64,000 nucleotides of DNA, taken from assembly GCF_009730335.1 (NCBI RefSeq), contig NZ_CP046315.1:1922001-1986000 (forward strand), written 5' to 3'. The DNA comes from Schaalia odontolytica. Lineage in GTDB: Bacteria; Actinomycetota; Actinomycetes; Actinomycetales; Actinomycetaceae. A program made the position numbers and the translations under genes. Position 1 is the stretch's first letter, and every line of letters starts with the position of its first letter. This document shows positions 1,053 to 27,470 of this stretch, piece by piece. Below the pieces are notes generated by a model, which saw only the letters and a list, made by a program, of their open reading frames with translations, had not been told where the DNA came from and made no database searches.

Positions 1053-2732
1053 TCACATCCTCTCGGGGGCACTCACACCGAGGAGGCCGAGGCCGGTGCG
1101 CAGCACCTGGGTGACCGCGTCGTTGAGCCAGAGGCGGGCGATGTGGCCGGGCTCAACCGGGTCATCGCCGCGAGGCGTCACGCGGCACTGGCCGTACCAG
1201 GCGTGGTAGGTCGCAGCCAGGGACTCGAGGTAGCGGGTGATGCGGTGCGGCTCGCGCAGCTCGGTCGCCTGCGCAACCTGCGCGGGGAACTGGGCGAGGG
1301 CTGCCAGCAGGGCCTCGTCGGCCTCGGAGTCGAGGGCGGCCGGGTCGAAGCCAGCATCGCGGGTGACGCCATGCTCGGCCGCATTGCGGGCGACATTGCA
1401 GGCACGCACGTGCGCGTACTGCACGTAGTAGACCGGGTTGTCATTGGAGTGCTGCGAGAGCAGGTCCAGGTCAATGTCGACCTGCGTGTCCATCGAGACT
1501 CGCACGAGGGCGTAACGCGCGGCGTCCACGCCCACGGCATCGACGAGGTCGTCGAGGGTGACGATCGTGCCGGCGCGCTTGGACATGCGCACGGGCTCGC
1601 CATCCTTGACGAGGTTGACGAGCTGGCCGATGAGGATCTGCAGATTCTCGCCCGGCTTGTCACCGAACGCAGCGCACATCGCCATCATGCGGGCGATGTA
1701 GCCGTGGTGGTCGGCGCCCAGCAGGTAGATGGCGACATCCGCGCCACGCTCACGCTTGTTGAGGTAGTAGGCGACGTCGCCCGCGAAGTACGCGGCCTGG
1801 CCGTCCGACTTGATGAGGACGCGGTCCTTGTCGTCGCCGTAGGTGGTCGTGCGCAGCCACACCGCGCCATCCTCGTCGAAGATCTCGCCGCGCTCGCGCA
1901 GGCGCTCGATCGCCGCGGCAACCGCGCCGGAGGTGTGCAGGGACTCCTCGTGGAAGAAGACGTCAAAGTCGGCCCGGAAGGAGTGCAGACGCTCCTTGAT
2001 CTCCGCGAACATCAGCTCAACGCCGCGAGCACGGAAGACCTCGATAGCCTCTTCTTCGGGCAGGGTGATCGGGTCGGGCTCGCCGGCCGCGCGCGCGTCA
2101 GCACGGACCTGGTCGGCAATGTCGGCGATGTACTGGCCGCCGTAGCCGTCCTCGGGAACCTCGCGGCCCATGGCGCGGGCGTAGAGAGAATGCGAGAAGC
2201 GGTCGATCTGCGAGCCGTGGTCGTTGAAGTAGTACTCGCGGGTCACGGCGGCGCCGGAGGCGGCCATGAGGCGGGCGAGAGAGTCACCGACGGCTGCCCA
2301 GCGGGCGCCGCCCAGGTGCACGGGGCCGGTCGGGTTTGCAGAGACGTACTCGAGGTTGATCGAGCGGCCCGAGAGGGTCTCGTTGCGGCCGTACGCGGCG
2401 CCGGCCTCAACGATCGTGCGAGCCAGCTCGCCGGCCGCACCCGCGCCCAGGCGGATGTTGATGAAGCCGGGGCCAGCGACCTCGACGGAGTCGATACCGT
2501 CGGCGGCGGCCAGGTCATCGGCGAGGATCTGCGCGAACTCACGCGGCGCCATGCCGGCCTTCTTACCGAGCTGCATCGCGACGTTGGTCGCCCAGTCACC
2601 GTGCTCGCGCACGCGCGGGCGCTCCACGGTCACGGGGTCGGGGACCAGCGAGGGGTCGATCGAAATGCGACCGGCGGCAGCAGCGTCCAGCAGGGTCGCG
2701 CGGATGAGAGTAGCAAGTTCTTCAGGAGTCAC
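1053..2732 (-). CDS. argS: Arginyl-tRNA synthetase
   Basis: Class I aminoacyl-tRNA synthetase charging tRNA-Arg; 559 residues, normal for the family. In order: an N-terminal additional domain (about 1-110), the HIGH-type motif within [10 protein letters not shown] near residue 135, a KMSKS-type motif V-R-M-S-K-R-A-G near residue 365, and a C-terminal DALR anticodon-binding domain with a C-terminal R-M. It is the first gene of the argS-lysA operon. A tRNA-Arg gene lies 3 kb away in this window, but nothing links their expression. The upstream 170 bp are shared with the divergent mntH. Confidence 0.98.
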
Positions 2733-2860
2733 CCCTTTAGACTACGGGGTTTGTGCTCCTATCCGCGAACTCTCCCCGGCCTCGTGGATGAAAACCTGGC
2801 CACATGCGCGTCCCATTCCCCACCCCTCCCCCGCCCCGCGGGCCTCGAGACGGGTACAGT

Positions 2861-2874
2861 TTCGGGTAACCGAA
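2861..2874. promoter_or_regulatory. Inverted repeat upstream of mntH (possible metal-regulator operator)
   Basis: TTCGGGTAACCGAA has TTCGG/CCGAA arms around a 4-nt centre and ends 28 nt before the mntH start. Nramp manganese transporters are commonly controlled by DtxR/MntR-family repressors binding such dyads. The assignment to a metal regulator is inference from position only. Confidence 0.4.
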
Positions 2875-2902
2875 CGTTTTTCGTCAGCAGTGAGGAACAC
2901 CT

Positions 2903-4162
2903 GTGACCACCACGGACACCCAGCAGCGCCGCAAGCTCATCCCCCTCCTCGGCCCCGCCTTCGTCGCGGCCGTCGCCTACGTCGACCCCGGAAACGTCGC
3001 CGCCAACATCACGGCGGGCGCGCGCTACGGGTATCTGCTCGTGTGGGTTCTCGTGGCCTCGAACATCTTCGCGATGGTCATCCAGTACCTCTCCGCCAAG
3101 CTCGGCCTGGTCACCGGCCAGTCCCTGCCCGCCCTGCTGGGTGCACGCATGCGCAAGCCCGGGCGCATCGCATTCTGGCTTCAGGCCGAGATCGTGGCCG
3201 CCGCGACCGACCTGGCCGAAGTCATCGGCGGCGCACTCGCCCTCCACCTCCTCTTTGGGGTTCCGCTCCTGTGGGGCGGCGTCATCGTCGGCATCGTGTC
3301 GATGGCTCTGCTTCTTGTTCAGGGCGGTGGGCGCCAGCGCCAGTTCGAGACGATCATCGTCGGCCTGCTGATCATCATCACGCTGGGATTCCTGGCGGGC
3401 CTCTTCGTCGCGCCCCCCAGCCCCTCGGGCATGCTCGGCGGGCTCGTTCCTCGCTTCCAGGGCACCGACTCGGTCCTCGTGGCCGCCTCCATGCTGGGTG
3501 CGACCGTCATGCCGCACGCGGTCTACCTGCACTCCTCCCTCGTCAACGACCACGAGGCCGACGAGCTCGGCCCCTCCACCGGCGACGCCCGCCACTCCTC
3601 GGGACACCTCTCGCGCCTACTGCGCGCGACCCGCATCGACATCTACTGGGCGCTGAGCATCGCGGGTCTGGTCAACATCGGCCTGCTGCTCCTGGCCGCC
3701 GCGGCACTGGCCGGCCAAAGCGGCACCGACACGATCGAGGGCGCGCACGCCGCGATCTCCTCCACGCTCGGGCCCATCGTCGGCACGGTGTTTGCGGTCG
3801 GCCTGCTCGCATCGGGCCTGGCGTCCACGTCGGTGGGCGCCTACGCGGGCTCAGAGATCATGAACGGCCTGCTCCACATCCGCGTGCCCATCATGGCGCG
3901 TCGCCTCTTCTCCCTGATCCCCGCGCTCATCATCCTGGGCGCGGGCGCCGAGCCCACGTGGGCGCTCGTCGTCTCGCAGGTCGCCCTATCGTTCGGCATC
4001 CCCTTCGCGATCATCCCGCTCATGCGCCTCACCGCCAACCGCGACGTCATGGGCGACTACACCAACAATCGCCCCCTGCGCGTCACCGGTTTCCTCATCG
4101 CGGCCGTCATCGTCGCGCTGAACCTGTTCCTCGTGTACCTCACCCTCACCGGCCAGGGCTAA
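2903..4162 (+). CDS. mntH: Nramp-family Mn(II)/Fe(II) transporter
   Basis: Proton-coupled divalent metal importer of the inner membrane; 419 residues with about 11 hydrophobic segments. The first helix carries the metal-binding D-P-G-N (residues 28-31), and the sixth-helix motif M-P-H-A-V-Y-L-H-S supplies the second half of the site, as in bacterial Nramp structures. The start is GTG at 2903; the leader has an AGGAACACCT-type ribosome site. The gene is divergent from argS-lysA, and a small dyad lies just upstream. Substrate preference (Mn over Fe) is family knowledge, not shown here. No partner gene follows; the next 1 kb has no convincing gene. Confidence 0.95.
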   Translation: MTTTDTQQRRKLIPLLGPAFVAAVAYVDPGNVAANITAGARYGYLLVWVLVASNIFAMVIQYLSAKLGLVTGQSLPALLGARMRKPGRIAFWLQAEIVAAATDLAEVIGGALALHLLFGVPLLWGGVIVGIVSMALLLVQGGGRQRQFETIIVGLLIIITLGFLAGLFVAPPSPSGMLGGLVPRFQGTDSVLVAASMLGATVMPHAVYLHSSLVNDHEADELGPSTGDARHSSGHLSRLLRATRIDIYWALSIAGLVNIGLLLLAAAALAGQSGTDTIEGAHAAISSTLGPIVGTVFAVGLLASGLASTSVGAYAGSEIMNGLLHIRVPIMARRLFSLIPALIILGAGAEPTWALVVSQVALSFGIPFAIIPLMRLTANRDVMGDYTNNRPLRVTGFLIAAVIVALNLFLVYLTLTGQG

Positions 4163-19883: not shown

Positions 19884-20888
19884 ATGCGCAGTAATAATCC
19901 GTACGCACCGCCCACCGGGTCGGAACCCGCGCTGCCCGAGGAGAACGTGGAGGCTGCGCACCGGGTGCCACGAAACGGGCCGGTGCCCGTTGAACCCTCC
20001 GCAGAAGGGTCTGACCCTGCGTTCCCATACGGAGTTCCCACCCCTCGCACCGGGGATGAGAAACCCGTCGAGACTCTGCCCCCGCACATCTCCGAGGCGC
20101 ATGCGGACAGCGAGCCGACGGCGCCTGCACCCCGCGCCGCCTCCCCCTCAGCCGCTGCGCAGCGCGATCGTTCATCGTCGCCGACCGCTGCACGGCCTCA
20201 CGCGACGTCAACAGGCACAGACCCACAGGACAGTTCCACACCAGAGGATAAGTCCACGAAGGCCTTCACTCTCCCGATACCCACCCACGTGTTCGCGGGT
20301 CTAGCGAGCGTAATCGCAGTACTGTTCTTCACCAGCATCGGAATTGCTCAAGCCAACGATTTTGGTACTGCCACACTTCAATGGCAGTTCGCCGCATGCC
20401 TGTTCGGGCTCGCAGCCGCGGGTTTGTGCATTCCCTTCATTCCCGCCACGGTGCGCTACACGCGCATCTTGTTCACAGAAGGCGAGAATGAGTCGGCCGA
20501 AACTCGGGCGTCCGGGTATACCCTCATCTGCCTCGTCGGACTTGCCGCCGCAGTCATCTCAATCAGCAACGCAGTGCCGGCAGCACGCGACCTCATCGAA
20601 GGACCCCACGCCACAACAGTCTCCTCGTGCTGGTTGTACCAACGTCCGGTGAAGAGCTCACCAACAAACACCAGCCCGAGCAGCTATAGGAACGAATTCA
20701 ACATAACACTCAACGACAAGAGCACGCTCGTCCTTGTCATCGAAACAGAAAAACGGGATGAGTTGCAGTCGGCATCGGGCATCTCCGGCACCCTCTACAA
20801 AGGATGCGAGTTGCGCCCCTCATCGAAGAAGCTGGTCCTCGACCTGTATCCGCGCACGCAGATCATCGCTGACGCGCGCCTCGTCTAG
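19884..20888 (+). CDS. Membrane protein of a local tandem family, copy 1
   Basis: 334 residues. A long Pro/Ser/Ala-rich cytoplasmic lead (1-128) is followed by hydrophobic segments at about 135-155, 160-185 and 208-232, then an extracellular-type domain. That domain begins G-P-H-A-T-T-V-S-S-C and ends L-D-L-Y-P-R-T-Q-I-I-A-D-A-R-L-V. The G-P-x-x-x-T-V-x-S-C entry, a single later cysteine and the Y-x-x-x-W/Q-I-I-x-D-A-R-L end recur in copies at 21030 and 22419 and in a fragment at 21818. No known family recognised. It starts 9 nt after the SGNH-like gene. Confidence 0.65.
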   Translation: MRSNNPYAPPTGSEPALPEENVEAAHRVPRNGPVPVEPSAEGSDPAFPYGVPTPRTGDEKPVETLPPHISEAHADSEPTAPAPRAASPSAAAQRDRSSSPTAARPHATSTGTDPQDSSTPEDKSTKAFTLPIPTHVFAGLASVIAVLFFTSIGIAQANDFGTATLQWQFAACLFGLAAAGLCIPFIPATVRYTRILFTEGENESAETRASGYTLICLVGLAAAVISISNAVPAARDLIEGPHATTVSSCWLYQRPVKSSPTNTSPSSYRNEFNITLNDKSTLVLVIETEKRDELQSASGISGTLYKGCELRPSSKKLVLDLYPRTQIIADARLV

Positions 20889-21029
20889 CGAGTACCTGTC
20901 CATGAACGAATGCCCCTGCCGACTCATCAACACCTATCAGTCAGGCGTCCTCGCGCTCGCACGCACTCAGCTCAGAGGATGCGCCCGAATGCGCCGACCT
21001 CGTCAGCAGCCGATTACGTCCGGAAGACC

Positions 21030-21803
21030 ATGAGCAACCAGTATCCTCTCCCACCCTCCAGCGACGGCCCGACGCAGTACGGCGCTCCCAACTACGGGAC
21101 GACGCAGTACGGCGGCTACGGCACCGATCCCGCCAGCCTGTCCTATCAGCGGGTCTCACCCACGACCGTGGCCAATCACCAGCAGCGCAGACAAAGCCTC
21201 AAGTTCGTCATCATCTCGCTGGCCACCATCCTCCTGGGCTGCGCCGTCTATTTCCTCCGCGACCTCTTCGAGTACGGGACGCCACTCCTCATGTTGAGGC
21301 TCGCCGAGAGCGCGGCGGGGCTTGTTTTAGCGTTGTCCTGTTTTCCTTTTGCTTCCATTCTTCGACGCCAAGCACAGCCAGCGTATCCATCGAGCAGCAC
21401 CCCTCAGCGGCCGCGCGACATGAGCGGCCCCCTCTACTTCGGCATGGTGGGTCTCCTCATCGCGGGTGTGTCGCTCTACTTTGGTCTGCCCGCCGCGATG
21501 GATCTCGCGGACGGCCCTCAGCCGAAGACCGTCACGTCATGCATGTATTTCCAGTACGACGCCCCCCGATCCATGTTTTCTCACTCATCGGTCTACAGGG
21601 ACAACTTCTCGATCAACTTCGAAGGCGGGCTCACGCATACGACGACGTTCATCTCAGAGAGCATCGACGACATCGAGACGCGTGGGGACCTAGCGACGGA
21701 GCTGTACAACGCCTGCGAGCACCGCGAGCGCACTCAAACGATGACGGTGTCCTACTACCCGCGCACGTGGATTCTGACGGGCGTGCAGGTCAGCGGCTCG
21801 TGA
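21030..21803 (+). CDS. Membrane protein of a local tandem family, copy 2
   Basis: 257 residues from ATG 21030 (GGAAG upstream). A short Gln/Tyr/Gly-rich lead (1-50) is followed by hydrophobic segments near 60-80, 88-108 and 137-158, then the shared external domain beginning D-G-P-Q-P-K-T-V-T-S-C and ending in Y-Y-P-R-T-W-I-L. The lead differs completely from that of copy 1, while the membrane-plus-domain part is alike, so the family evolves by changing N-termini. Directly after the stop lies the C-terminal remnant of another copy. Function unknown. Confidence 0.65.
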   Translation: MSNQYPLPPSSDGPTQYGAPNYGTTQYGGYGTDPASLSYQRVSPTTVANHQQRRQSLKFVIISLATILLGCAVYFLRDLFEYGTPLLMLRLAESAAGLVLALSCFPFASILRRQAQPAYPSSSTPQRPRDMSGPLYFGMVGLLIAGVSLYFGLPAAMDLADGPQPKTVTSCMYFQYDAPRSMFSHSSVYRDNFSINFEGGLTHTTTFISESIDDIETRGDLATELYNACEHRERTQTMTVSYYPRTWILTGVQVSGS

Positions 21804-21817
21804 GAATCCCAGAAACA

Positions 21818-21907
21818 AAAGCGTGCGCTGACAAGAAGGGGGCCTCACCTCTGACACTTGAGGTCTATCGCCACAGCTGGATCATCGTCGACGCGCGGGT
21901 TGAGTAG
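21818..21907 (+). pseudogene. C-terminal remnant of a further tandem-family copy
   Basis: Codes for about 29 residues ending L-E-V-Y-R-H-S-W-I-I-V-D-A-R-V-E and stop, the same C-terminal pattern as the intact copies at 19884 and 22419. No start, membrane part or cysteine entry precedes it: the rest has been deleted, probably by recombination between tandem copies. Confidence 0.7.
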
Positions 21908-22104
21908 GATGCTGCGTGTTTTCACCGACGAGGTGGGTGCACCCGCCCAGCCCGAGCCTCGTCGTCACGACGCCACACGGCACCACTGAGACACCACCAC
22001 CGAAGAACTCCCCGCCTTCAATCCACACCACGCTACCTATGCAGGTGGGCAGTGACACGGAATAAACAGCCTCGTCCATCTCCGTCCCAGCTGAAACGGT
22101 TCTT

Positions 22105-22383
22105 ATGAGCAACGAAGCACCTCTCTCCCCCGATCAACCCTCCGTTGATGAACCCCAGATCTCGCGCACTGCCATCGCGGTAGCGGCGGGGAGCCTCACC
22201 GCAATTGTGTGCTGGATGATCATCCAATTCGCACGCATGTCACCCATCGCCGTTCCCGTCATCATCCCCATCTGCGCGGCTATCATCCTGAGCGGGATCA
22301 TTGGATGTGCCATCTATTATTCAATCGGTTTCGCTATACGAGACTCGCATAGGCCACGTCGGCACCGCAAAGAACGCGACTGA
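22105..22383 (+). CDS. Small two-helix membrane protein
   Basis: 92 residues from ATG 22105: a polar lead of about 20, hydrophobic segments near 21-42 and 47-76, and a basic Arg/His-rich tail (R-P-R-R-H-R-K-E-R). It lies between the fragment at 21818 and the intact copy at 22419, separated by 35 nt from the latter, and may be the membrane half of a broken family member or an independent small protein. No ribosome site better than the general background. Function unknown. Confidence 0.5.
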   Translation: MSNEAPLSPDQPSVDEPQISRTAIAVAAGSLTAIVCWMIIQFARMSPIAVPVIIPICAAIILSGIIGCAIYYSIGFAIRDSHRPRRHRKERD

Positions 22384-22418
22384 GCACCGCTACCCGCCGT
22401 ACCCATTGAAGCACCCCC

Positions 22419-23087
22419 ATGAGCAAGCGTAAGAACACGTCTACCACACCCCAATCCCCAACAAGTTCGCTGACGAAAGAGCAGAAGCGCTATGGGACAG
22501 CGTTCTGGATCGTCCTCACTCTCATCTTGTATGGTTTGGCCCATTTGGCAGACACAATTTCCCCTCATGGCCCCTCTCGGTTCCGCTGGCTGACTTTCTC
22601 CTACGGCACAGCGTTTCTCATCATGCTCGCATGCATCGCCGCCATTACCTACTTGTTTCAATGGTTCGACAAGCGCGAGAGAGCTGGCACTGTCATGGGC
22701 TTGCACAAACGAGCCACAGCCCTCGTGATACCGGTGCTTATTCTGATTCCAAGCGCCTACAACGCTCTAGGTTACGGGACGCGTGTCGTCTTCGATCTCT
22801 TCACCGGTCCGCAGACTGTGACCGTCTCATCGTGCACACGCGAAATTGTTTCGCGCCGAGAACCACATGGACGCTACCGAACCATGTCCGTAGCTGACTA
22901 TCACTTCATCATGACCCTGGCCGACGGAACCACCCGTCAGACAGTCATCGATAGCCGTGTATTTCTCGATGACCGACGCGTCGACGAAGTCCTGTACAGT
23001 GCTTGCATCAAGAATCCAGGGACAACTTCGATGACACTTGACGTCTACTACTACTCGTGGATCATCGATCAAGCAAGGCTGGATTGA
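22419..23087 (+). CDS. Membrane protein of a local tandem family, copy 3
   Basis: 222 residues. A short basic lead is followed by hydrophobic segments near 28-47, 63-85 and 100-125, then the shared domain: T-G-P-Q-T-V-T-V-S-S-C at its entry, a second cysteine near 200 (A-C-I-K-N-P-G) and the end D-V-Y-Y-Y-S-W-I-I-D-Q-A-R-L-D. The two conserved cysteines on the outer side could form a disulfide. Last of the tandem group; it meets the minus-strand hydrolase gene tail to tail. Function unknown. Confidence 0.65.
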   Translation: MSKRKNTSTTPQSPTSSLTKEQKRYGTAFWIVLTLILYGLAHLADTISPHGPSRFRWLTFSYGTAFLIMLACIAAITYLFQWFDKRERAGTVMGLHKRATALVIPVLILIPSAYNALGYGTRVVFDLFTGPQTVTVSSCTREIVSRREPHGRYRTMSVADYHFIMTLADGTTRQTVIDSRVFLDDRRVDEVLYSACIKNPGTTSMTLDVYYYSWIIDQARLD

Positions 23088-23179: not shown

Positions 23180-24064
23180 TCACGGCTGGGTGAGAATCCC
23201 CGAGATAAAGCGCGCGCTGTGGTCGAGGGCGGCCTCGGCCTCGGGAATGACGGGGACTGAGAGCACGTAGACGTGGAAGCCATCCGGCTCCACACGCAGG
23301 CGCACATCGACGCCAGCGCGAGCCGCCTTGCGGGCGAACTCGATCGTGTCGGGGCCCAAGATATCCGCGTCGCCCTGGAAAATCCGCATCGGCGGCAGGC
23401 CCGCCGGGTCACCGTACAGGGGGCTGACCCGCCAGTCTGCGGGGTCCAGGTCGCCCGCCCACGCGCGGCCCGCCCACTCCAGTCCGGGCGCGCGCAGGAT
23501 CTTATCGCGGTGCTGCACGTCCTCAATCGCCGGGTTCGTCATCGTCACGTCGACCCACGGGGCATACAGGACGAGGCCATCCACCTGACGTTTACCCGCG
23601 TCGCGACGCTGCATGGCGAGGGACAACGCCAGACCGCCGCCCGCCGAATCACCAAAGATGACGACGCGGCCGAACTCAGCCTGGACCTCGTCGATAATGG
23701 GCTGGACGAAGTCGAACGCTTCGGCCGCGGTGTGCTCGGGGGCGAGCGGATAGTCCGGAATGATGACGGGCAGGCCTGTGCGGTCGATAAGGCCCTCAAC
23801 GATGCCCCACTGGCCGTCAACCAGCGGGAAGAGGTAAGCACCGCCGTGCAGGAAGATGAGAGCGCCACCCGAGCGCAGGCCCTGCTTCGGGAACACGCGG
23901 GTCACGCCTTTATCGCACGTCGCCGTGAAACGCGCTCGCATACGTTCGGGCATGGGGTGCTGCAGTGGGGCACCCGCCGCCATGTCGCGCGCGGCTTCCT
24001 CAGTGTGCAGTGCGGGAGGCGTAAGCCCCTTGCGAGCGTGAATAAGACGCATCTGGAGGGACAT
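23180..24064 (-). CDS. Alpha/beta hydrolase, HSL-like carboxylesterase
   Basis: 294 residues, cytoplasmic. Typical hormone-sensitive-lipase family marks: the oxyanion motif H-G-G-A near residue 72, the nucleophile elbow G-D-S-A-G-G near 143, a catalytic aspartate in G-D-A-D-I-L and a histidine in D-G-F-H-V-Y. It probably hydrolyses short-chain esters. ATG 24064 is chosen for AGAGG just upstream; an extended frame from 24214 runs through unlikely sequence. Upstream lies the repeat-bracketed nuclease element. No operon partner. Confidence 0.88.
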   Translation of the reverse strand: MSLQMRLIHARKGLTPPALHTEEAARDMAAGAPLQHPMPERMRARFTATCDKGVTRVFPKQGLRSGGALIFLHGGAYLFPLVDGQWGIVEGLIDRTGLPVIIPDYPLAPEHTAAEAFDFVQPIIDEVQAEFGRVVIFGDSAGGGLALSLAMQRRDAGKRQVDGLVLYAPWVDVTMTNPAIEDVQHRDKILRAPGLEWAGRAWAGDLDPADWRVSPLYGDPAGLPPMRIFQGDADILGPDTIEFARKAARAGVDVRLRVEPDGFHVYVLSVPVIPEAEAALDHSARFISGILTQP

Positions 24065-24364
24065 GGGGCCTCTTTCATATCGATGAATCAGTCTGCGCGC
24101 ACCGGGACGCGCCCGAGCGCCAACAGGTACCAGGATACGCTGCGAGAGTGGTTCGCTCCTCGCTGCGACGCGAGTGCAACACCACCGCAGGTGGATAAGC
24201 TCGGCGTCGCCCACGCCGAAGTCGAAGGCTTCTGCACTTCTCGCGGAAGATCGAGGCGCCCGGTTGCATCAGGATCTGACACGAGCAGATCGGCCGATAT
24301 CTGGATGCTCGTTCAAGTGTCGCACGCGCGTATTCGGTTCACTGGAAATAGTAGAGTTGGCTTG

Positions 24365-24463
24365 TGGATAGGAAACGTTGTTCTGGATAGGAACTAGTTA
24401 TCTGGATAGGTTATTAAGCTATCCAGAACGCAATAACCTATCCAGATTTCCATTTCCTATCCA
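24365..24463. repeat. Left palindromic six-motif array (19-bp period)
   Basis: Three forward TGGATAGG words start at 24365, 24384 and 24403; three reverse words (GCTATCCA at 24418, CCTATCCA at 24437 and 24456) end at 24425, 24444 and 24463. Neighbouring words of one orientation are exactly 19 bp apart, and the array is perfectly symmetric about 24414. A matching array is at 25795-25893. A perfect DnaA-box word TTATCCACA stands at 24659. Confidence 0.9.
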
Positions 24464-24719
24464 GATGGTGCGTGAGGCTTCTCCTCGTTGATCTCTACGG
24501 GACGCTCCTCACCCCAACAACGTACATTCAGATATCAGTCCCCCTCACACACCCCATCGCTAACAGCTCTCCGCGCGCGCTTCCGCCCCCATCCTGACAG
24601 GCGACTCCCGACACCTCACTCCTCGCCGTTATGCACAGGGGCATAAAGAGAGACCTGGTTATCCACAGGCCGTCCTTTTCGACTACCCCCAACTCGAAGC
24701 TCTGTTCAAAGCTGGATAC
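24464..24719. other. Non-coding lead between left array and nuclease gene
   Basis: 256 bp without a supported gene. It includes TTATCCACA at 24659-24667. The frame of the nuclease gene stays open through roughly the last 100 bp, so a longer N-terminus from a non-standard start codon cannot be excluded. Confidence 0.4.
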
Positions 24720-25811
24720 ATGAACCAGGTACCTGTTGTCGTCACCGATGTCTTACAGACACCAAAGAGCCAAGCGCATTCGCCCGTCACCGTTCGCATC
24801 ATGCGCGGCATTGCAGCTGCTCTCCCACTGCATCCAGACGAGTCAACTCCTTGGGAAATATGGAACGCGGTTGCCCTCGCCCGAATCCATGCAGTGAATG
24901 CATCCCTACAACACCAAGCACTGTACGTAGGACGTAGTTGCCTTCTACTCAACGGAATTCAGGGATGGTCCGCTAATCCACAGATAACCATCTACAGGCC
25001 AACAAGACGATCCACTTCCCGACTTCCAGCGTGTTCGGTCGGCTCAACGACAGTACCCGAAACAGGTGTCACCTGTTCCAGCATCCCTCCACTCTCTGAG
25101 GAACGCAGACGCACTAACGGATTGGAAACGGAACACCCGTACGATGCACTCATCCGTTGCGTTCAGCAAGAGGAGCCGTTGGAGGCTTTCACCCTCGGAT
25201 GCATGGCACTGCATCAGTGGAGCAACTTTTCAATGTTTGAGCAGATGGAATCACGTGAACGGGCAGAGGAAATCCGCGTAGAGCTCCTCAAGCGCCTCGA
25301 ACGCTCCCCCACAAAACGAGGACTCCGTCGAGCATGCGCCATTCTTCGCGCGATTGATCCTGGATGCGAGAATCCTGCTGAAGCAGCCTTGCTTTGGCTT
25401 GTGCGCTCGATCAGCCCTTTCCCGTCACTGACTCAAGTGCACATTGAGGTCCGGGGTCGTCACTATTACGCAGATATTGTCATCGCAGATCTACGAATCA
25501 TCATTGAATTTGACGGCATCGGGAAACTAGGCGACAACCAATCCGATCTTGCGCGCGCAAAACGGGAGTGGATCCGCAGGGATCAGGATCTTCGCGATGC
25601 AGGATGGAACGTTATTCGTGTCAGCTGGCCGGACTACAACGACTGGGAGGGTCTACGGTTGAGGCTCATGAGAGCGCTAGGGCGTACAAGCTCATCACTC
25701 GATCATCGCCTTCTATGGAGCCCTCCCACCGAGCGCTGCGATGGGCGAAATCGACGTTTCCGGATCGGACGTGCCCCACAACGAGTTCATGTTCTGGATA
25801 GGAAACAGTGA
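24720..25811 (+). CDS. DUF559/PD-(D/E)XK nuclease-like protein within a repeat-bracketed element
   Basis: 363 residues. The C-terminal part (about 235-325) has the DUF559/Vsr-like nuclease pattern: Y-A-D-I-V (Asp 252), I-I-E-F-D-G (Glu 263, Asp 265), a basic R-A-K-R-E-W-I-R-R-D-Q-D helix, then G-W-N-V-I-R-V-S-W. The N-terminal part recalls the AbiEi-like lead of actinobacterial DUF559 proteins (A-L-Y-V-G-R-S-C-L-L-L-N-G-I). The start is uncertain: ATG 24720 has no clear ribosome site and the frame is open upstream. The gene ends inside the right array, so its last codons are array sequence. GC is lower than in the neighbours. Possible roles are a selfish nuclease, phage defence or a repair enzyme; unresolved. 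Confidence 0.65.
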   Translation: MNQVPVVVTDVLQTPKSQAHSPVTVRIMRGIAAALPLHPDESTPWEIWNAVALARIHAVNASLQHQALYVGRSCLLLNGIQGWSANPQITIYRPTRRSTSRLPACSVGSTTVPETGVTCSSIPPLSEERRRTNGLETEHPYDALIRCVQQEEPLEAFTLGCMALHQWSNFSMFEQMESRERAEEIRVELLKRLERSPTKRGLRRACAILRAIDPGCENPAEAALLWLVRSISPFPSLTQVHIEVRGRHYYADIVIADLRIIIEFDGIGKLGDNQSDLARAKREWIRRDQDLRDAGWNVIRVSWPDYNDWEGLRLRLMRALGRTSSSLDHRLLWSPPTERCDGRNRRFRIGRAPQRVHVLDRKQ

Positions 25812-25893
25812 ACTGGATAGGTTATCGCGTTCTGGATAGCTTAATAACCTATCCAGATGCGTGGTTCCTATCCAGAACGGCGTTTCCTATCCA
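25795..25893. repeat. Right palindromic six-motif array (19-bp period)
   Basis: Forward TGGATAGG/TGGATAGC words at 25795, 25814 and 25833; reverse CCTATCCA words at 25848, 25867 and 25886. Spacing is again 19 bp, symmetric about 25844. Aligned to the left array in inverted orientation, about 80-85% of the roughly 100 bp match, with all six words in register. Confidence 0.9.
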
Positions 25894-26541: not shown

Positions 26542-26841
26542 CTAGCGCCAGGTGACGGACACGCTGGTGATTGATGCGACGACGCGGGCGCGCAGCGCAT
26601 CGGACGCCTGCTCGGACTCGTAGCAGCCGCGCAGGAGGGCGCGCACGTGGCGCTCCGCATCCAGGGCGTCGGTGCAGTGCGCGCAGGTGGCGACGTGCTT
26701 GATCATGAGGGCACGGGCGCGCGCATCGGGGCCGGGCACGGATCCGGCGTCGATGAGGCCGCTGCGGCGGTCACATTCCTCGCAGTCGATCAGTTCGTAT
26801 AGGGCGTCTAGGACATCCTGGCAGGTCACGTGAGTGTTCAC
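26542..26841 (-). CDS. rsrA: Zinc-binding anti-sigma factor (RsrA/RshA type)
   Basis: 99 residues with the ZAS signature H-x3-C-x2-C (His49, Cys53, Cys56) plus Cys7 near the N-terminus, the zinc ligands of RsrA in Streptomyces. In that family thiol oxidation expels zinc and frees the sigma factor. It starts at GTG 26841 overlapping the sigma stop (GTGA), so the two proteins are made in step. Two more cysteines (20, 23) lie in the helix between. The role is to hold the ECF sigma inactive until disulfide stress. Confidence 0.9.
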
Positions 26842-27470
26842 TTGGTTGCTCCGATCCCGTATTCCGCGGCGACGTCAGCCAGCACGGAGCGCAGGTTCTT
26901 GCGCGCCCGGTTCAGTCGGCTCATGACGGTCCCCATAGGAACTCCTAGTTCTTCGGCGATTTCCTTGTAGCTCATACCCTCAACGTCAGCCATGAGGACA
27001 ACCATCCGGTGTTCCTCTGAGAGCGAATCGAGGGCGTCACGCAGCTGAGCGGAGGGCAGCGCCTCAAGCGCCTCGACTTCCGCGGATTTGAGGCCAACCT
27101 CTGAGTGGGAGGCGGCGTCGGCCAGCTGCCAATCCTCGACGGTGTCGCTGGAGGCGCGCTTGGGCGAGCGCTGCGCCTTGCGGTAGCTGGTGATGTAGGT
27201 ATTGGTAAGGATCCGGTAGAGCCAGGCCTTGATATTGGTGCCAGGCTGATACTGGTGGAACTTCTGGTAGGCCTTGAGGTAGGTCTCCTGAACCAGATCC
27301 TCCGCGTCGGCGCGGTTGCGGGTCATGCCCAGTGCCGCGCCGAAGAGTTGGTTCATGAGGGGCATCGCTTCGTCCATGAAGCGCGCCTCGAGCTCGGCAC
27401 CATCCAGAGCGGACGAGGCCGGGGTAAGCTCGGGTGCCTGCGGCGTCGGTGAGGGGGTTGTCGTATCCAT
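26838..27470 (-). CDS. sigH: ECF sigma factor, SigH/SigR type
   Basis: 210 residues. Sigma region 2 (about 40-105) has [14 protein letters not shown] and [12 protein letters not shown]; region 4 (about 140-195) has the helix-turn-helix [17 protein letters not shown]. The paired ZAS anti-sigma identifies the disulfide-stress class (SigR of Streptomyces, SigH of mycobacteria). A GGAAT-N17-GTT element upstream (27565 to 27541) matches the promoter form read by this class, so the gene probably activates itself. ATG 27470; the first 30 residues are variable and Pro/Thr-rich. Confidence 0.93.

Follow-up and report, generated by a model that had tools for sequence, protein, structure and literature searches.

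A nuclease-like gene and the palindromic arrays dispersed around its chromosome in Schaalia odontolytica: a candidate REPtron-like pair built on a PD-(D/E)XK-type enzyme

The closest described counterparts of the locus analyzed here are REPtrons, or REPIN-RAYT systems, in which a chromosomal TnpA-REP gene is bordered by its cognate palindromic repeats, many more of which are dispersed (PMC8049555, PMC8266576). In these systems, gene and repeats change their specificity together, and the gene is often lost while the repeats stay (PMC8049555, PMC8266576). In a stretch of 64,000 nucleotides from Schaalia odontolytica (the window; contig NZ_CP046315.1, positions 1,922,001 to 1,986,000), we analyzed a nuclease-like gene that lies between two palindromic arrays of short, regularly spaced words (Table 1).

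Table 1. Features of the window around the nuclease-like gene, and words of the arrays at homologous loci.
Feature	Coordinates	Strand	Description
Left palindromic array	24365..24463	.	Six TGGATAGG words (3 forward, 3 reverse) at a 19-bp period; centre at 24414
Right palindromic array	25795..25893	.	Same design, centre 25844; overlaps gene end
Nuclease-like gene, 363 aa	24720..25811	+	DUF559/MTES_1575-like C-terminal part; E221, Q239, D252, E263 and K269 invariant
Esterase-like gene (Abhydrolase_3), left neighbour of site	23180..24214	-	Profile match; also adjoins gene-less sites
rsrA-like anti-sigma gene, right neighbour	26542..26841	-	TIGR03988 at 50.9 bits (cut-off = 62.5)
sigH-like sigma factor gene	26838..27470	-	TIGR02947; served as locator of the site in other genomes
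L188 array word			GGGGCAGG, 20-bp period, same AGGTTATTAACCT centre as window arrays
L193 array word			CTCAAGGCA
L279 array word			CTCGACGTT
L232 array word			CACCGTCATG
L286 array word			CGACCTAG; further words at more loci

The original prediction, made from the letters of the window, had described two six-word palindromic arrays with a 19-bp period, and their coordinates and centres were confirmed, with the refinement that one word of each array carries a single mismatch (TGGATAGC), the other five of the six being exact. In the left array, forward words start at 24365, 24384 and 24403 and reverse words at 24418, 24437 and 24456; in the right array, the corresponding starts are 25795, 25814 and 25833, and 25848, 25867 and 25886, the spacing being 19 bp inside each arm of both arrays. 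With at most one mismatch, the TGGATAGG word has 47 matches in the window, against a mean of 26.87 and a maximum of 40 in 100 shuffles. The two arrays can be aligned by BLAST in inverted orientation (88% identity over 101 bp) and in direct orientation (76% identity over 87 bp). The gene is enclosed by them and its stop codon falls within the right one, again as predicted.

The nuclease-like gene has a G+C content of 54.9%, against 65.8% for the window. Its protein matches MTES_1575 (18.7 bits, cut-off = 38.2, E = 0.0019) and DUF559 (16.8 bits, cut-off = 20.6, E = 0.0062), in both cases below the Pfam gathering score; among 39 relatives, 19 match MTES_1575 and 17 match DUF559 at E 0.01, and the L193 protein has a DUF559 match above the curated cut-off. 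The five residues listed in Table 1, together with G266, R287 and G295, are invariant across these 39 aligned, diverged relatives, and the catalytic pattern of the window protein (E..D..ExD...K) is PD-(D/E)XK-like. An invariant pattern of acidic residues and lysine is what established knowledge of the PD-(D/E)XK superfamily leads one to expect and, as expected, the pattern conserved here would fit an active fold of this type. The protein had been described as a DUF559-like PD-(D/E)XK protein: the second half of this description is upheld by the pattern invariant in the 39 relatives, whereas the first rests on matches below the gathering scores. The N-terminal half, in turn, presumably resembles AbiEi-type proteins. 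Among the neighbours of the gene that were examined, we found neither a recombinase partner nor a partition gene. Elsewhere in the window (19884-23087), three adjacent ORFs of 334, 297 and 222 aa apparently encode paralogous membrane proteins with a common TV(S/T)SC motif.

The gene is one of a family in actinomycete bacteria, and its best homologues from other species likewise have flanking palindromic arrays, built to the same plan from different words. We scanned 76 homologue loci, corresponding to 75 mostly high-ranking homologues (one gene was present twice and was dropped from the per-gene count), with a de novo array detector, and 55 of the 152 flanks scored at least 47, 52 of them at a period of 19 or 20. 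When the genes were separated by the motif E-x-[DSE]-G-x-x-K-[LMF]-[GS], a split that was defined after the alignment had been seen, 42 of the 66 motif genes had a 19/20-bp array (score of at least 45) on at least one flank and 24 had none above the threshold, against one borderline array for the nine genes outside the motif. Homologues from genomes that lack GGATAG arrays (the type of the window) by a strict pattern had, at the same threshold, arrays at 24 of 49 genes and on 30 of 98 flanks. Outside the family, a homologue was detected in one of 393 other genomes of the class that were sampled (at E 1e-30), and one of its flanks scored 46 at period 20.

Two sets of controls were used, namely 300 segments from seven GGATAG-bearing genomes and 40 sigH flanks from 20 other genomes. 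Four of the 300 segments scored at least 47, two of them at period 20 and both at one place, which is itself an array; likewise, 19/20-bp arrays with a score of at least 45 were limited to two single segments, both at one place holding a true array, in a comparison where a gene contributes two flanks and a control segment one, and where the rates are thus not per equal length. None of the 40 sigH flanks reached 45. A 2+2 GGATAG array is present on two of them, in G009 and G018, with a score below this value, so the detector overlooks short arrays at genes and in controls alike. A shuffle null is weak for this detector. We are highly confident that gene and arrays are cognate partners. The earlier claim that the nuclease-like gene belongs with this array architecture holds, and more widely than was claimed, since the same design, with other words, accompanies homologues elsewhere in the genome and in further species.

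The words themselves vary with the protein. The same word is found on both sides of 21 of the 22 genes with two arrays (more alike than 95% of 268 cross comparisons), and of 12 of 13 genes once the nine GGATAG orthologues are removed. At a protein identity of about 50% or more, 72-93% of 55 pairs have a word similarity of at least 4.0, while below about 50% only 0-1% of 848 pairs reach this value, which corresponds to background; because the relation is a step, the overall rank correlation between protein and word is only 0.15. Moreover, five of the six words tested are dispersed, and this almost exclusively where the cognate gene is present. For the GGGGCAGG array, there are 52 matches in G006, 67 in G007, two at one place in G017, one weak match in G001 and none in the other 31 of 35 genomes; CTCGACGTT has 97 matches in G123 and none in three relatives, CTCAAGGCA has 53 in G031 and none in four relatives, and CACCGTCATG has 82 in G124 and none in three relatives. 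The exception is CCTACCGACG, which is hardly dispersed (four matches in G027, of which two adjoin the gene, and none in four other genomes). Within the GGATAG clade, the two bases preceding the word vary by genome; the commonest dispersed subtype is the one found round the gene in G000, G026 and G023, and in G001 and G022 the arrays at the gene are of mixed subtype.

The genome of the window (G000) encodes a second member of the subfamily (L269, G000:C1:687000-691000) with a 20-bp-period array upstream (GCACGCTAAC, score 49), and words related to GCACGCTAAC adjoin L264, L266 and L268. At L270 (G009:C2:812200-818400), two equally scoring homologue copies share one orientation and are separated by about 2.1 kb.

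The left array of the window has 35 BLAST matches in its own genome, a count that takes in both strands of one array and corresponds to ~20 loci on a chromosome of 2.43 Mb, with a gap at about 0.97-1.65 Mb. The strict pattern, made of the centre and two reverse words, matches 10 of the 35 genomes of the genus (3 to 43 forward matches each; zero for the reversed control in the same 35 genomes), and this is a lower bound, as short arrays such as the 2+2 arrays of G009 and G018 are missed. The original prediction had seen in gene and arrays a self-contained element. With ~20 array places in one genome and the gene at one place in nine of the ten strict-pattern genomes, a private mobile element is ruled out by the dispersal of the arrays: these occur far from the gene and remain where the gene is absent, which brings down that part of the prediction and leaves the cognate pairing standing.

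A scan of 107 sources yielded 127 arrays (126 unique), of which 61 have exactly 3+3 words, making this the most frequent GGATAG layout, and the rest range from 1+3 to 3+9; a homologue of the nuclease gene was found by tblastn in four of these sources. Sequence conservation ends sharply at the outermost words, with none outside the array in 175 half-arrays, and a MITE with longer ends was discarded on this basis. A larger shared element was also discarded, as the repeat common to the G000 loci stops at or near the array, with other repeats scattered in some loci, and so was an RNA family, the arrays having no Rfam match at gathering scores. The arrays beside the gene at L178 and L179 show an expansion in unit number, with up to nine reverse words in G023 and eight in G020, the units being near-identical. 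At L236 (4871-6274; G005), two GGATAG arrays bracket two small genes that, from a reading of their ORFs, may encode a HepT/MntA-type toxin-antitoxin-like pair.

Array copy number and position vary much between close genomes. Fourteen of the 20 arrays of G000 have a counterpart in the compared stretches of G005, which belongs to the same species. The remaining six have none there, and at least one of these is an array whose orthologous place itself was not found in the stretches. Three arrays of G005 lack a full counterpart in G000, where a remnant is kept at two of the places. Taking all loci together, paired flank placements had an array in 150 of 225 cases and none in 75. Eight site alignments contained no clean insertion with target duplication; the differences are replacement- or deletion-like, and one leaves half a word. 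A transposon or MITE was rejected, as these alignments show no cleanly empty sites of the kind expected from fixed ends and a target duplication, and as nothing is conserved outside the half-arrays.

We propose, with a probability of roughly 0.5, that the gene and the array population form a REPtron-like pair whose enzyme, unrelated and of the PD-(D/E)XK type, would read double-stranded words. Such a pair would comprise one chromosomal nuclease-like gene and a population of palindromic arrays of the word recognised by its protein. The protein may bind each word as double-stranded DNA, cooperatively and probably outward from the central dyad, and may nick or cut at the bound words. Repair of the breaks would then copy, homogenise and sometimes delete or trim arrays, so that the array population would track the specificity of the protein and could be spread by it, and recombination between the arrays on either side of the gene could delete it, with one array staying behind. 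As a single strand, the array can fold well (z = -6.58). Facing words do not covary (similarity of 0.661, against 0.689 for other words, in 61 arrays); the corresponding values are 0.414 and 0.448 for outer spacers and 0.495 and 0.444 for pooled spacers, the pooled figure including the shared centre. A hairpin constraint on the arrays is thus unsupported, facing words being no more alike than others, and there is no need for a hairpin. The strongest facts contrary to this mechanism are the intact arrays of G019, which lacks the gene, and the absence of any insertion in the eight site alignments, and it is because of these that we put it no higher than even. Further points against it are the 24 of 66 subfamily genes without an array above the threshold, the poor dispersal of CCTACCGACG and the mixed subtypes in G001 and G022.

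It is also conceivable, if unlikely, that the arrays serve the host. The protein would then be a DNA-binding regulator or chromosome organiser acting on tens of arrays, which selection would preserve where they are of use and which the enzyme would not copy, its nuclease activity perhaps being lost or rarely used. The strict 3+3 layout is consistent with this explanation, as is the fact that, in shared arrays (13 array pairs, of which one contributes an alignment of the flank alone), words differ at 13 of 421 positions and spacers at 46 of 632 (p = 0.004); compared with the flanks, however, where 62 of 1369 positions differ, words are not clearly better kept (p = 0.21). The arrays of G019, which are as intact as elsewhere (23 arrays, with 5.83 of 6 words exact), and the single place of the gene in nine of ten genomes also argue for it, and so does a non-random array context: 49 arrays lie in convergent, 44 in tandem and 4 in divergent gaps, against 27.1, 56.6 and 13.3 expected by gap length, as counted for the 97 of 127 arrays with a called gene on either side (the other 30 were dropped) by a crude gene caller that missed the nuclease gene itself. 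Nevertheless, the gaps that are avoided are the divergent, promoter-bearing ones, which speaks against a regulatory network and rules out that the arrays are, as a rule, promoter operators. The invariance of the catalytic residues in 39 diverged relatives and the variable number and position of arrays among close genomes are also difficult to reconcile with a host-serving role.

A role in defence or self-recognition, in which the nuclease would act on foreign DNA and the arrays would be control sites or marks of the own chromosome, seems improbable to us. A nuclease-like fold, predicted from the sequence, would suit such a role, as would the fast change in specificity and the presence of several paralogues per genome. 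However, the window protein has no PADLOC match, with weak matches in single members of the 39 relatives only, and no match in viral contigs, plasmids or phages; the patterns of two of three words are absent from viral contigs, and the window gene was not seen to have a partner gene next to it. The suggestion of a defence gene under array control accordingly loses its footing on the PADLOC results and on the avoidance of divergent gaps by the arrays. An origin from a phage or plasmid was rejected, as the protein has no match there and two word patterns have none in viral contigs. The CTCGACGTT pair pattern is present in one viral contig (IMGVR_UViG_3300031372_000041, 2416-2444; L365).

The chromosomal site and its gene-less forms bear on the loss of the gene and on whether it may be excised. 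The gene lies 0.9-3 kb from sigH in nine of the ten strict-pattern genomes, and G019 has one array (2+3 words) and no gene between the esterase gene and rsrA-sigH. In a tree of the rsrA-sigH region, in which G001 was flagged as a long branch, the gene-bearing G017 branches before the other nine genomes, including G019 (support 98/98), and G019 has therefore probably lost the nuclease-like gene. G018 (L345, about 500-1109) and G009 (L348, about 2478-3100), whose own sigH shares only 69% protein identity, carry beside their own rsrA-sigH a stretch with 88-94% DNA identity to the G019/G022 site, which comprises both flanks and a single 2+2 array without a gene. Its match to the G022 allele switches gene sides inside the array, indicating a hybrid of the two arrays, and from these similarities the copy of the esterase-array site in G009 and G018 was likely acquired by horizontal transfer. 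The left and right arrays of one genome are alike: in G012 and G017 they are direct repeats and almost identical, and in G000 they are inverted. Deletion by recombination between arrays and insertion of gene and array into an array would both fit the gene-less sites. The idea that the gene is excised at its own array has cases in its favour: three species (G019, G009 and G018) carry a site with one array and no gene; the same pictures would result from insertion into an array.

In its strongest form, this idea holds that an array-gene-array unit is cut out by its own nuclease and that the dispersed arrays are scars of past cassettes. The three gene-less sites and the junction inside the array in G009 and G018 would agree with it, but one genome has ~20 arrays without the gene, the place of the gene is stable and ordinary repeat recombination accounts for the same scars, making such a cassette very unlikely. 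Finally, that an unrelated intergenic repeat lies beside the gene by chance is hardly credible, for although most arrays have no such gene nearby, as in the tblastn scan, it is one gene subfamily that carries different words per genome with the same word on both sides, and the controls are empty save for one true array.

Several evenly spaced binding words are also characteristic of the ends of Tn7-like transposons and of plasmid iterons and centromeres. The arrays share the even spacing of words with all of these, but differ in being present in ~20 copies on one chromosome, most of them without cargo. The window protein, in turn, resembles DUF559/MTES_1575 proteins of unknown function in its C-terminal nuclease-like part; unlike these, its subfamily falls mostly under the curated cut-offs and has a K that presumably replaces the H of DUF559, and relatives outside the motif gave only the one borderline array in nine. 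Among the papers listed by searches of the open-access literature, none described a system made of such a DUF559-type gene and palindromic arrays, which does not prove its absence.

As in REPIN-RAYT systems, the gene is bordered by cognate palindromic repeats that are also dispersed, a likeness that is weak for the CCTACCGACG word. In contrast, the enzyme is of the DUF559/MTES_1575 type (PD-(D/E)XK-like) and not an HUH (Y1) single-strand transposase; mirrored units of 19-20 bp in a row make up the repeat, whereas that of REPIN-RAYT consists of one or two hairpins; facing words lack the covariation that would mark folded single-stranded recognition; and several paralogous array systems can co-occur in one genome. 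Since the enzyme belongs to another superfamily and the repeat is built differently, we do not class the array system as a member of the REPtron/REPIN-RAYT group. We tentatively suggest that it represents a new class of chromosomal enzyme-repeat system, in which nucleases of the PD-(D/E)XK type would recognise words in double-stranded DNA, set 19-20 bp apart, and would propagate or preserve palindromic arrays round the chromosome. The code linking protein to word would change fast and differ from paralogue to paralogue and from species to species. If so, it would give a role to a group of DUF559-like proteins of unknown function, and its many natural enzyme-word pairs would make a recognition code readable by comparison and open to direct testing. 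It would also be a second, unrelated solution to the role played by RAYT and REP, with an enzyme long tied to a repeat population of the same chromosome.
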